Shown here: one piece after another, positions 2,490 through 6,133 of the stretch
How positions within the stretch are numbered: the first letter of the stretch is position 1
How the letters are laid out: the number at the start of each line of letters is the position of its first letter
Source of the DNA: Methanoregulaceae archaeon
Lineage (GTDB): Bacteria > Armatimonadota > Fimbriimonadia > Fimbriimonadales > Fimbriimonadaceae
Assembly (NCBI GenBank): GCA_020850325.1
Contig: JADZEW010000001.1
Location: 186,001 to 250,000, forward strand
Direction of reading: 5' to 3'
Length of the DNA stretch: 64,000 nucleotides
Notes under the pieces: model-generated
Databases searched by the model: none
What the model saw: only the letters and a program-made list of their open reading frames with translations
Told to the model about the DNA's origin: nothing
Made by a program: the position numbers and the translations under genes

Positions 2490-3424
2490 GTCTGCTAGAT
2501 TGGTACGACCGCTACGGTCGTGACCTGCCCTGGCGACGCACCCGCGACCCCTATGCCGTATGGGTGAGCGAGGTCATGCTCCAACAAACCCAGGTCGCGA
2601 CCGTCCTTCCCTATTACGAGCGATGGATGGCGCGCTTCCCCACTGCGGCGTCGCTGGCCGAAGCTCCCGAAGAAGAGGTGATGGCGCATTGGCAGGGCCT
2701 GGGCTACTATCGCCGCTGCCGCAATCTGCTCGAAGGCGTGCGGCGATGCGTAGCCAACGGCTTCCCCGTGGGTCATGACGCCTGGCGATCGATGCCGGGA
2801 GTCGGCGACTACACCGCAGCCGCCCTCGCCAGCATTCTTGATGGCGAACCCACACCCGTCGTCGATGGCAATGTCGAGCGCGTGTACGCGCGGGTATGTG
2901 CAGATGATTCAGTAGGCGACACCCGACGCCGCGCCGCCCGAGCCTGGGCGCAAACGCTCATCTCCCACGAGCGCCCCGGAGATTGGAACCAAGCGATCAT
3001 GGAGCTCGGCGCGACCGTCTGCCGCCCCCGAAATCCTCGTTGCGAAGCCTGTCCGCTCCAAAGCGAATGCCTCGCCTTTGCGCGAGGGCTCACCGACAGC
3101 CTCCCCACCCCCAAGCCGAGACCGACGACCGTGGATCGTACGCATCCGGTCGCGGTTTGGCGTCGCGCCGATGGCGCGGTCGGAATGGTGCAAGCGCAAG
3201 AAGCCGAGTGGTGGGCGGGACTCTGGGTGCTCCCGACCCCATCCGCCATAGGCCAACTCATCGCCTCGGTCACGACGACCGTCACCCATCATCGCGTCGT
3301 GCTCTCCGCTTATGAAGGAGTCGGCGAGCCACCCACGGGCCTGCGTTGGGTGACCCGCGGGGAGCTTCCCGCCGTCCCCATCCCGGCGCCCTTTCGCAAG
3401 TTGCTGACTAAGCTCGGCTTTTGA
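2486..3424 (+). CDS. mutY: A/G-specific adenine glycosylase
   Basis: Base-excision repair glycosylase that removes adenine mispaired with 8-oxoguanine. The reading frame is open far upstream inside pyrF, but homology begins only at GTG 2486, which overlaps the pyrF stop; that start gives 312 aa. Visible motifs are E29 in the SEVMLQQTQV helix, the helix-hairpin-helix MPGVGDYT (103-110), the catalytic Asp in VVDGNV (D127), and a complete 4Fe-4S loop C179-X6-C186-X2-C189-X5-C195. The C-terminal NUDIX-like domain that reads 8-oxoG is shortened. The 3' end overlaps the convergent oxidoreductase gene by 17 nt. Confidence 0.95.
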   Translation: MSLLDWYDRYGRDLPWRRTRDPYAVWVSEVMLQQTQVATVLPYYERWMARFPTAASLAEAPEEEVMAHWQGLGYYRRCRNLLEGVRRCVANGFPVGHDAWRSMPGVGDYTAAALASILDGEPTPVVDGNVERVYARVCADDSVGDTRRRAARAWAQTLISHERPGDWNQAIMELGATVCRPRNPRCEACPLQSECLAFARGLTDSLPTPKPRPTTVDRTHPVAVWRRADGAVGMVQAQEAEWWAGLWVLPTPSAIGQLIASVTTTVTHHRVVLSAYEGVGEPPTGLRWVTRGELPAVPIPAPFRKLLTKLGF

Positions 3425-4391
3425 GCTGCCGAATCTCTTCGAGCGTGGTTTCGAGCGACGTGCGCGAGGTCAAAGGCGTCACGATCTCCAGCGGCTGTCC
3501 CGCATTCACGCGGTCCACGAAGTATCGAAGCTCGTGGTAGTAGCCGCCGAGGTCGCTGATGTTGCCGCCGCCTTGGGCTTCCATCTTCGCAAACTCGGGC
3601 ACGACGGGCTCCTTGCCGGGTTCGTAGATCGTGAGGGGACCCGCGTCCATGATCGCCGCGCCACGCTCGAAGATCGCGCGGAACGCCATCTTGAAAGGCG
3701 TGTGCGAAGGCAGATTCCAGCCGCCTTCGAGGTGAGCCACGCATCCCGGGTAGGTCATCGTGGTGAAAACATGACCCGGGCCGCGCTCGTCGACCGTGCC
3801 CCACGAGTTGATCGAGTCGGGATCGCCAAGCAGGTAGTGGATGAAGTCGGTGTCGTGGATGTGCATGTCCAGCACGCCCCCGCCCGCGAGCTTCTCGTCG
3901 GCGAGCCAGTTGTCGCTCGACCAGTGCGGAAACTCGCCGTAACGTAGAAGGTTGATCGAAAGAAGTTTGCCCAATCGCCCGTCGTCGGTGATCTCCTTGA
4001 GGAGCGCGTACTCGGGCCAGAAGCGGATACAGTGGCCGATCATGAGCTGCACGCCCGCCTGGTCGACGGCCTCGATCATCGCGTCGGCGTCGGCGACGGC
4101 AAGCGCCATCGGCTTCTCGCAGAAGATGTGCTTGCCGGCTTGGGCGGCGAGGATCGTCGCTTCCTTGTGGAGGTGAGTGGGAAGGCAGATGTCGACCGCG
4201 TCGAGCTCTTCGGCGGCGAACATGGCTTCGAGGCTGAGGTAGGCGTTCGCGCTGAAGTCGATGCCGAACTTCTCCGCCCGAGCCGGCTTGTGATCCGCCA
4301 CCGCGACCAACTGTGCTCCATCAAGGAGCGAGTAGACGTTTGAATGCATGCGGCCCATAAAGCCGCATCCGACGAGTCCGACGCGAAGCAT
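3408..4391 (-). CDS. Gfo/Idh/MocA-family NAD(P)-dependent oxidoreductase
   Basis: Predicted cytosolic sugar or inositol-type dehydrogenase of 327 aa. The N-terminal Rossmann fold starts at once with MLRVGLVGCGFMG (residues 1-13). The family's EKP motif is at 92-94 (CEKPMAL), and the C-terminal half has the mixed alpha/beta dimer domain. The exact substrate cannot be read from sequence. The frame is open upstream to 4748, but the Rossmann start fixes the initiator at ATG 4391. No clear Shine-Dalgarno; CATCAT lies 6 nt before the ATG, a weak match to the leaderless pattern seen elsewhere in the window. Monocistronic, convergent with mutY. Confidence 0.88.
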   Translation of the reverse strand: MLRVGLVGCGFMGRMHSNVYSLLDGAQLVAVADHKPARAEKFGIDFSANAYLSLEAMFAAEELDAVDICLPTHLHKEATILAAQAGKHIFCEKPMALAVADADAMIEAVDQAGVQLMIGHCIRFWPEYALLKEITDDGRLGKLLSINLLRYGEFPHWSSDNWLADEKLAGGGVLDMHIHDTDFIHYLLGDPDSINSWGTVDERGPGHVFTTMTYPGCVAHLEGGWNLPSHTPFKMAFRAIFERGAAIMDAGPLTIYEPGKEPVVPEFAKMEAQGGGNISDLGGYYHELRYFVDRVNAGQPLEIVTPLTSRTSLETTLEEIRQLKSRA

Positions 4392-4481
4392 AAACTCATG
4401 ATGACTTATGGCGGCTAAATCTGCCGATAACCGCCACCGTCGCAACCCCGCACAACATTCAGGTGCGGAACACCGCGCGGA

Positions 4482-4682
4482 ATGCCAAACATCTCCTTTG
4501 GTATGTGGAGGGACGAGGAACTCTTTCTGGTGTTGACGCAAGAGGAAGCGTGGGAACTGATGTCCCGCTGCCTCAACAGCGCGGAACCCGACAACGAGAC
4601 GAGCCGGGCGGTGTTGCGCAAGCTCGCGCGGATTCTGCAGTGCGCCCAGATGGAACCCGCGACGGATCAGCGCGCGGCGTAA
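4482..4682 (+). CDS. Small acidic protein of unknown function
   Basis: A 66-aa ORF beginning MPNISFGMWRDEELFLVLTQ, with a helical acidic/leucine-rich pattern (LTQEEAWELM and RAVLRKLARIL) and no signal peptide or membrane segment. It looks like a compact helical protein and not random translation, and it fills the gap between two minus-strand genes. The Shine-Dalgarno is weak (GCGGA directly before ATG). A second Met at residue 8 is an alternative start. I do not recognise the family. Two cloverleaf repeats lie just downstream and may end its transcript. Confidence 0.55.
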   Translation: MPNISFGMWRDEELFLVLTQEEAWELMSRCLNSAEPDNETSRAVLRKLARILQCAQMEPATDQRAA

Positions 4683-4689
4683 GCACTCG

Positions 4690-4747
4690 GGAGGGCGCCG
4701 CTCCGTCGGCGCCGACAACCTGGCCACGACAAAGCGTGGCCCTCCCA
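4690..4747. repeat. Cloverleaf palindromic repeat, copy 1
   Basis: A 58-nt unit closed by GGGAGGG and CCCTCCC. It holds two perfect internal hairpins: GGCGCCG-ctccgt-CGGCGCC and GGCCACG-acaaag-CGTGGCC, so it can fold as a three-way junction. It lies between genes and is followed 24 nt later by a second copy. Confidence 0.8.
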
Positions 4748-4771
4748 CCAGCCGACATTACTGGCCACTCG

Positions 4772-4829
4772 GGAGGGCGCCGCTCTGTCGGCGCCGTACT
4801 CCTGGCCACGACGAAGCGTGGCCCTCCCG
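4772..4829. repeat. Cloverleaf palindromic repeat, copy 2
   Basis: Also 58 nt and in the same orientation as copy 1. It differs at six positions, all in the two hexaloops or the linker between the hairpins; every stem base is conserved. This fits a REP/MITE-like element held by its structure. It ends just before the stop of the convergent membrane-protein gene. Confidence 0.8.
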
Positions 4830-4834
4830 CCGTG

Positions 4835-6133
4835 CTACCCGTGAATCTGCCGCAGCGCGCGCTTGTTGAAGTACGCCAGCGCGGCTAACTCTCCAATCAG
4901 CGCCACATTCATCGCGAACGCGGCGATCGAGACGCCTGGCCACTTCATCGCCAGGCCGATCCCCAGCCCGACGAACAGCAGCCCCATGCCGACTCCGACC
5001 GAGGTCAGCCGCGGCATCGTCATGCGCGCCACAGTCAAGGTGCCGCGGGCGAAGCTCTGCAGCGCCCCGATGAGCGGGAACGCAACGCAGAGGATGATCG
5101 CGGCATGCGCCATCTCGGCGGTGTCGGCGGGGGTTTTCAGCAGTCCGGACAGGAACGCGAGATCGCCTCGCGTCAGCCACAGCACACCGAGCAGCGACGA
5201 CGAGAACACGCCGACGCCGATGCAGAAGCGCCGAAGCTGGCGCACGGAGTCGGCGTCCTTAGCGAGCGTTATGACCACCTCGGGCAAGGCGTACACGATC
5301 GTTCGGTGCATCCACACCAGCGTGGTGGTGACCTGCCAGCCCGCCATCGCGAGCACGGAATCCGGGGATCGGGCGAGCGCGGCGCCGACGATCGGCCCCG
5401 CACTGAGGGTGAGCATCGTCGTCGCGGTCAGCGGTAGGTGAAACTTCGCGAGATCGGACATGGACAGATCGGGGCCCTCGACTTCCTCGGGCAAGCCCGC
5501 CACCACCCGCCGACTGACCAAGTGGACGAAGATCGCCTCGGACGTCACCGACGCCATCAGCGCAATCGCGACCGCCATTGTTCCGCTGAACTGGGCGGTC
5601 GATGCGACGCTGAAGCCGACGGTCGCGGCAAAGGCCATGCGCACCACCGTACCCACTCCCACCGGGCGGGTGTGTCCGTTGCGGATCAGCAAGCCCTGCT
5701 TATATCTGCGCCAGCCGATCATCGCGCTCCACGGAATCATCACCGCCAAGGGAAGGCGAAGTTCGTCGGCCACGGCGACGGGAAGCCGCAAGACGTTCAG
5801 CGTGATGAGGGGATAGAGCGGGGTCAGCGTCACCAGCGCGTGGACGACCGTGCACCAGCCCATCACCCACCACACAAACCGGCTGATGAGCGCGAACCGC
5901 TTGCGATCTCGGGCGAGCGCGGTCGAGGTGCTGAGCAAGTCGATGACCGGACTCTCGATCCACAGCGACATCGACATCAGCATCAGGAACGCCGCGATGT
6001 GGAGCTTGGCGTCGGGCAGCTGCGAGATGATGCGCAGCGAAATCGGGGCCTCCGCCGACATGAACAGCCACGAAGCCGCAAGCGGAACATAGAAGCGGAA
6101 GATGCGGCTGGTGGAGAGGGGCCCGGTTGACAA
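4835..6133 (-). CDS. Polytopic membrane protein, MOP/ANKH-like
   Basis: A 432-aa integral membrane protein with about ten to twelve hydrophobic segments spread over its length. Two similar halves each open with an aromatic-Pro-Leu start (FRFYVPLAASW near residue 13 and KFHLPLTATTM near residue 230). This two-fold arrangement recalls the MATE/MurJ/ANKH (MOP) exporter fold, and the opening resembles the ANKH branch, but I cannot assign a substrate. The start is TTG at 6133 with GAGG four bases upstream. It stands 40 nt downstream of murB on the same strand, so it may share that transcript and could serve envelope transport; that is inference. Confidence 0.6.
   Translation of the reverse strand: MSTGPLSTSRIFRFYVPLAASWLFMSAEAPISLRIISQLPDAKLHIAAFLMLMSMSLWIESPVIDLLSTSTALARDRKRFALISRFVWWVMGWCTVVHALVTLTPLYPLITLNVLRLPVAVADELRLPLAVMIPWSAMIGWRRYKQGLLIRNGHTRPVGVGTVVRMAFAATVGFSVASTAQFSGTMAVAIALMASVTSEAIFVHLVSRRVVAGLPEEVEGPDLSMSDLAKFHLPLTATTMLTLSAGPIVGAALARSPDSVLAMAGWQVTTTLVWMHRTIVYALPEVVITLAKDADSVRQLRRFCIGVGVFSSSLLGVLWLTRGDLAFLSGLLKTPADTAEMAHAAIILCVAFPLIGALQSFARGTLTVARMTMPRLTSVGVGMGLLFVGLGIGLAMKWPGVSIAAFAMNVALIGELAALAYFNKRALRQIHG

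Follow-up and report, generated by a model that had tools for sequence, protein, structure and literature searches.

The element described here lies in a window of 64,000 nucleotides, by which we mean the whole stretch of DNA that was analysed, between the stop codons of two convergent open reading frames. The product of the longer frame looks, by eye, like a membrane protein. The element consists of two tandem copies whose starts are 82 nt apart (Table 1), each directly preceded by CACTC (4684-4688 and 4766-4770). Each copy is composed of two inverted 25-nt REPs, with the consensus GGGAGGGCNNYGCTYYGTCRNNGCC, and a linker, and each REP has the same layout: a foot GGGAG, a 7-bp stem and a loop CTYYGT.

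Table 1. Features at and around the repeat element (window coordinates)
Feature	Position	Strand	Remarks
GFO/IDH/MocA-family oxidoreductase, left neighbour	3408..4391	-	Pfam-supported part begins at 4391
66-aa open frame	4482..4682	+	stops 6 nt ahead of copy 1; no Pfam or NCBIfam match
Head-to-head REP dimer, copy 1	4689..4746	.	58 nt; 8-nt linker 4714-4721
REP arm 1	4689..4713	+	foot GGGAG; stem GGCGCCG/CGGCGCC; loop CTCCGT
REP arm 2, inverted partner of arm 1	4722..4746	-	stem GGCCACG/CGTGGCC; loop CTTTGT (- strand reading)
Spacer between the dimers	4747..4770	.	24 nt
Head-to-head REP dimer, copy 2	4771..4828	.	58 nt; 8-nt linker 4796-4803
REP arm 3	4771..4795	+	stem GGCGCCG; loop CTCTGT
REP arm 4, inverted partner of arm 3	4804..4828	-	stem GGCCACG; loop CTTCGT
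432-aa open frame, convergent	4835..6133	-	stop-codon end begins 6 nt past copy 2; no Pfam or NCBIfam match

The original prediction, made from the window alone, described two cloverleaf repeats of 58 nt that differ at six positions, all unpaired. Comparison of the copies bore this count out: the hexaloop mismatches are at copy positions 16 and 43, one per loop, and the four linker mismatches at 27-30; the chance that six randomly placed mismatches would all land on unpaired bases (20 of the 58) is 0.00096. The identity of the stems could reflect either selection or merely a recent tandem duplication. The two copies do lie at the predicted location, 4690-4829, but its ends were one base too high (compare Table 1). 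The cloverleaf itself held only in part. When one copy is folded as DNA, the two 7-bp hairpins form over a closing stem of 5 bp (z -3.25; 0 of 200 shuffles did as well), not the predicted 7 bp; a closing stem of that length would share bases with the hairpins and could not form at the same time as both. As RNA, the minimum-energy fold of either strand is a single long interrupted hairpin with no cloverleaf (z -3.9 to -4.5). What had been taken for the closing stem, GGGAGGG/CCCTCCC, represents the conserved 5' heads of a pair of inverted REPs.

The exact REP pattern has 33 matches in the genome that contains the window (20 on the plus strand and 13 on the minus strand), while the reversed pattern, used as a control, has none; an earlier pattern with up to three mismatches allowed gave 45 matches, against 9 for its control. 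The loci that we extracted from this genome hold 44 sites at no more than three mismatches and 42 at no more than two, with three weak sites lying outside these loci. The original prediction would have been refuted by a lack of further copies or by uncompensated stem changes. Copies are plentiful, and stem changes are mostly compensated: all seven stem pairs are formed in 34 of the 42 copies, the other 8 having at least one non-Watson-Crick pair. For the two stem pairs not fixed by the pattern, 78 of 84 cells are Watson-Crick; in 2,000 shuffles, which take no account of kinship among the copies, the average was 38.9 and the highest value 52. The GGAG foot is present in 40 of 42 copies (38 GGGAG, 1 CGGAG and 1 TGGAG).

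Pairing of copies and intergenic placement, which the original prediction had proposed to check, were both found. About half of the copies (22 of 42 arms) belong to 11 head-to-head dimers, whose linkers measure 8-10 nt in ten cases and 27 nt in one. Every one of the 11 joins two differing stems, and five unite the stems GGCGCTG and GGCTCCG, the same two that flank the RAYT gene described below, one on each side. With genes called by a crude codon-based finder, 34 of the 42 arms are intergenic, compared with 712 of 4,400 random places; two of the eight arms called as lying inside a gene are the first window dimer, a call caused by the over-long predicted start of its left neighbour. The copies occur in both orientations and in many gene contexts, including between tandem and divergent genes, and their head, loop and foot are conserved beyond base pairing and are common to the REPs around RAYT genes. 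We looked for a CT signature beside the REPs of this genome and none stood out; there is only a pyrimidine preceding GGGAG.

A RAYT-type transposase, which the original prediction had proposed as one possible source of such an element, is encoded in the same genome between inverted copies of the same REP. We located its gene with a purpose-built profile search: an intact frame of 156 aa (G000, C31:82278-82745) with plus-strand REPs at 82183 and 82223 before it and minus-strand REPs at 82753, 82802, 82848 and 82899 behind it. The frame upstream reads, by eye, like the end of alaS. The protein carries both an HUH motif (PDHIH) and the tyrosine (SEYVQSN), scores 86.4 bits against the NCBIfam model REP_Tyr_transpos (cut-off 80) and 15.1 against Pfam Y1_Tnp (below the cut-off of 23), and matches E. 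coli TnpAREP (4er8) by sequence at E 3e-9. Eight other loci match Pfam Y1_Tnp; as candidates for the transposase of this REP they were rejected, as none has the window REP within 1.5 kb, and that search misses the C31 gene. Copy number, pairing, intergenic bias, compensated stems and a RAYT flanked by REPs together support the second of the two readings offered in the original prediction, a palindromic REP element with its RAYT. The inverted repeats around three further RAYT-like genes of this genome (L014 on C22, L015 at C1:173082 and L016 at C26:152642) are of other kinds, so several REP families seem to coexist in it.

Another view of the site comes from a sister species of the same genus (G130). 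The flanks of the window site align there at 98% and 94%, with the same stop codons on both sides, and in the site alignment the REP between those stop codons is absent. The sister site holds instead an array of 7-nt AGTTGGC-like units opposing its own inverse, a different long fold-back (at L161:446-572, the ortholog of window 4683-4838, the heptamers read AGTTGGC/AGTTTGC). A 15-mer from this array matches, among 346 loci, only loci of that site. The window site is therefore occupied in one of two genomes, through either gain or loss of the REP. We compared two further REP sites with the sister genome and found no second clean empty site; the flanks of one are on two contigs, and the other sits amid further repeats. 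Several other REP sites, including the RAYT locus, have common flanks in both species. The sister RAYT is 90% identical to that of C31, is likewise flanked by inverted REPs, and scores 78.1 bits against REP_Tyr_transpos, just below the cut-off of 80; its structure model has a pLDDT of 43, too poor for use. Around the 66-aa frame, identity with the sister reaches 98% over window 4442-4681, compared with 88 and 94% for its neighbours. Elsewhere, L167:900-2300 (C21) holds several more interspersed repeats, with 61 matches in the sister genome.

Taken together, the window element is very probably a tandem pair of head-to-head REP dimers (REPIN/BIME) belonging to one RAYT-linked REP family. In a rival reading the family is a non-mobile relic: the RAYT no longer mobilises REPs, and the window copies arose from recombination and tandem duplication only; the shared flanks of the RAYT locus in the two species fit this, as do two tandem copies that differ at 6 of 58 sites. 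We nevertheless consider such a relic unlikely, given a RAYT frame that is intact in its HUH motif and tyrosine and 90% conserved between species, and a window site that is occupied in just one of them. Slightly less probable again, in our judgement, is that the element is maintained between convergent genes as a bidirectional RNA terminator or mRNA 3'-end stabiliser, mobility being only its history. Such a role would suit its location, with the stop codon of a convergent frame 6 nt away on either side, its strong RNA folds on both strands, and the fact that the sister species has a different fold-back at exactly this site. Against this, no T-run terminator was found, some copies are located between tandem or divergent genes, and conservation of head, loop and foot extends beyond what pairing would demand, in common with REPs around RAYT genes. 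A structured regulatory RNA, such as a riboswitch or small RNA, would account for a strong, covarying structure; we regard it as very improbable, as Rfam (gathering threshold) finds nothing at the element and only two tRNAs elsewhere in the window, and the copies appear in both orientations and many gene contexts.

On the preferred reading, that of RAYT-linked REP dimers, the family is probably spread by the single-strand transposase encoded elsewhere in the genome. The RAYT, a 156-aa HUH protein with one tyrosine, would bind the hairpin as single-stranded DNA along with the GGAG foot on its 5' side, and would then cut and rejoin nearby, so that a dimer is copied or moved; the genomes compared reveal no transposition, target-site rule or cleavage site. 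The dimer itself may be the left and right end REPs of the RAYT cassette minus the gene, as suggested by the five of 11 dimers that join stems from both sides of the RAYT gene. The second window copy would have followed by tandem duplication of an 82-nt unit. If the host benefits from the element, for instance from a stem at the meeting point of two convergent transcripts, that role would be a secondary one.

The window element is of a known kind, RAYT-linked REP dimers, with an unusual guide, and its interest lies in this guide and in its link with the transposase, not in the window copies themselves. Like the REP/REPIN (BIME) systems of E. coli, Pseudomonas and Stenotrophomonas, as far as the accessible text of the reports describes them (PMC2817692, PMC3733652, PMC6006769, PMC8266576), it combines a short hairpin on a tetranucleotide 5' foot with head-to-head dimers, intergenic placement and a RAYT gene between inverted REPs; a multi-copy intergenic palindrome with a conserved tetranucleotide at the hairpin foot, inverted dimers and an adjoining RAYT are all present. 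Unlike them, its linkers are 8-10 nt, compared with 20-100 bp for most spacers given in the text of PMC3733652, and its roughly 40 copies are few for a classic REP genome. Above all the foot differs, being GGAG in this genome where known systems, in the text of these sources, have GT[AG]G. In the text of PMC6006769, 66 families have GTAG or GTGG; the degenerate forms of the GTAG superfamily in that of PMC3733652 are GYAG, GYRG, GTRG and GTMG, with GGAG not among them; and the other feet described there are CGTC, which marks a second superfamily (PMC3733652), and CnGA, of class 3 TnpA(Y1) (PMC6006769). Because its foot is GGAG, membership of the GTAG-tagged and of the CGTC-tagged superfamily, as the text of PMC3733652 defines them, can be ruled out. 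The text of the literature searched makes no mention of GGAG-tagged REPs, although a figure may show such repeats. Figures aside, the letters GGAG or GGAGG are absent from the text of PMC3733652 and PMC6006769; the accessible text of PMC8266576 has no word starting with GGAG, and in that of PMC2817692 these letters are present inside GTAG/GTGG repeats.

Other relatives fit less well. Class 3 TnpA(Y1), as described in the text of PMC6006769, likewise has a non-GTAG foot beside a Y1 HUH gene but differs in its foot and its Y motif, and the C31 gene passes the REP_Tyr_transpos model. TnpAREP subclass 2.4 (RAYT group 4) shares with the present family a WQ motif, members in scattered phyla and relatives in which the interval from HUH to Tyr carries in-frame inserts; its motifs in that text are NH[IFV]H and YIxNNP, whereas the HUH motif here is DH[IV]H and the C31 protein has DHIH and YVQSNALR. 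The dimer also resembles IS200/IS605 MITEs, that is, cassette ends without a gene; unlike in those elements, no end-cleavage signature was seen, and the family model identifies the gene as a RAYT.

Beyond the two sister species, the exact pattern is rare in the phylum. It occurs in 3 of 291 genomes (33 matches in the window's own genome, 23 in G130 and 25 in G122) and in none of the other 288, and all three have a close RAYT. In G122, of the same family, there are two RAYTs (56 and 52% identity), each between inverted REPs of its own stem types. A RAYT match was found in 50 of the 291 genomes, and several that lack the exact REP bear hairpins of their own. Scanning named genomes gave at least 80 loci; the 80 listed contain 98 matches, 88 of them paired at both of the free positions and 83 along the whole seven-pair stem. 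Among the matches listed are titles from Verrucomicrobia, Kiritimatiellae, Lentisphaerae, Opitutus, Chthoniobacter, Syntrophaceae and Fimbriimonadaceae, as well as a Thermogutta, a Phycisphaerae bacterium and a Gemmatales bacterium. One listed match in Streptomyces is likely due to chance because its hairpin does not pair, and two listed Gemmatales matches may be chance as well. When 39 listed genomes with the REP pattern were searched for a RAYT, 18 matched at E 1e-10 and 21 did not.

To relate the guide to the transposase, we assembled 94 different RAYT-like proteins with their flanks from the window's own genome, the phylum and the 39 named genomes, leaving out second fragments and L275-L280 and L282-L292, whose genes were already included. 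Calling each guide by its most frequent foot left many loci undecided because feet overlap, and this caller was dropped. A direct count of the hairpins on a GGAG foot and of those on a GT[AG]G foot, up to 500 nt from the RAYT, a rule picked once its output had been seen, called 35 loci GGAG and 23 GT[AG]G, with 36 undecided. Residue 101 (E. coli H101 numbering) was read off an alignment to 4er8. It is Arg, Thr or Val in 34 of the 34 GGAG loci that cover the position and His in none, while 22 of 23 GT[AG]G loci have His; the exception, L294 (counts 1 and 2), has Arg. Adding 11 loci called by eye, not blind, brings the agreement to 41 of 41 and 26 of 27. Residue 99 differs too, being Trp in 32 of 34 GGAG rows and mostly Phe or Tyr in GT[AG]G rows.

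These loci are related, and independent contrasts are few. The RAYT tree needs three guide changes with the automatic calls and five with the added loci, of which the starred branches force only two; there are either two independent pairs (both favourable, with L294 omitted) or three (two favourable, one without difference). This is too few for a sign test, so the tendency of a GGAG guide to accompany Arg, Thr or Val at residue 101 is suggestive only. The GGAG-type RAYTs are not one clade: a single origin of the 48 GGAG-type and related rows was rejected (p-AU 1.8e-5, on a quick tree and for a group named after the tree had been seen). In the accessible text of PMC6006769, the guide-reading region of TnpAREP includes W94, Q95, E100, H101 and R104, and H101 is sometimes Arg in subclasses 2.5 and 2.7, whose REPs are of GT[AG]G type, which argues against residue 101 as the sole determinant.

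Our tentative proposal, which we hold with rather less than even confidence, is that GGAG REPs form a further superfamily (Armatimonadota; Verrucomicrobiota with Kiritimatiellae and Lentisphaerae; Planctomycetota), in which guide base 2 may have changed from T to G alongside a change of RAYT residue 101 from His to Arg or Thr, more than once, so that residue 101 would be part of a switch in guide specificity. The GGAG guide would then be read by a RAYT with Arg or Thr101 in place of the His of GTAG readers. In one RAYT (Mb), the choice of CT depends on pairing with A3G4 of GTAG and that of CA on pairing with T2G4, according to the accessible text of PMC8266576; under the same rule a GGAG guide would keep the choice of CT, and the alternative cleavage dinucleotide would change from CA to CC. 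RAYT-REP recognition has so far been worked out on GTAG readers, and RAYTs with another guide that differ at a residue in the reported GTAG-reading region offer a ready mutational test of guide reading and cleavage-site choice.

Several loci met in the course of this comparison deserve mention in their own right. L253 encodes a RAYT with His101 flanked by the same hairpin twice, one copy with a GGAG foot and one with a GTAG foot, and is a possible intermediate between guides. A second, distant group of RAYTs with a YWDRH-like motif also has GGAG-foot flanks (L299, L301, L303, L304, L310, L314, L321, L328 and L330). At L243, L245 and L247-L250, the RAYT match is in two pieces within a single open frame, the HUH and WQ regions being separated by an insert; these inserts resemble the in-frame REP inserts described for subclass 2.4 in the text of PMC6006769.
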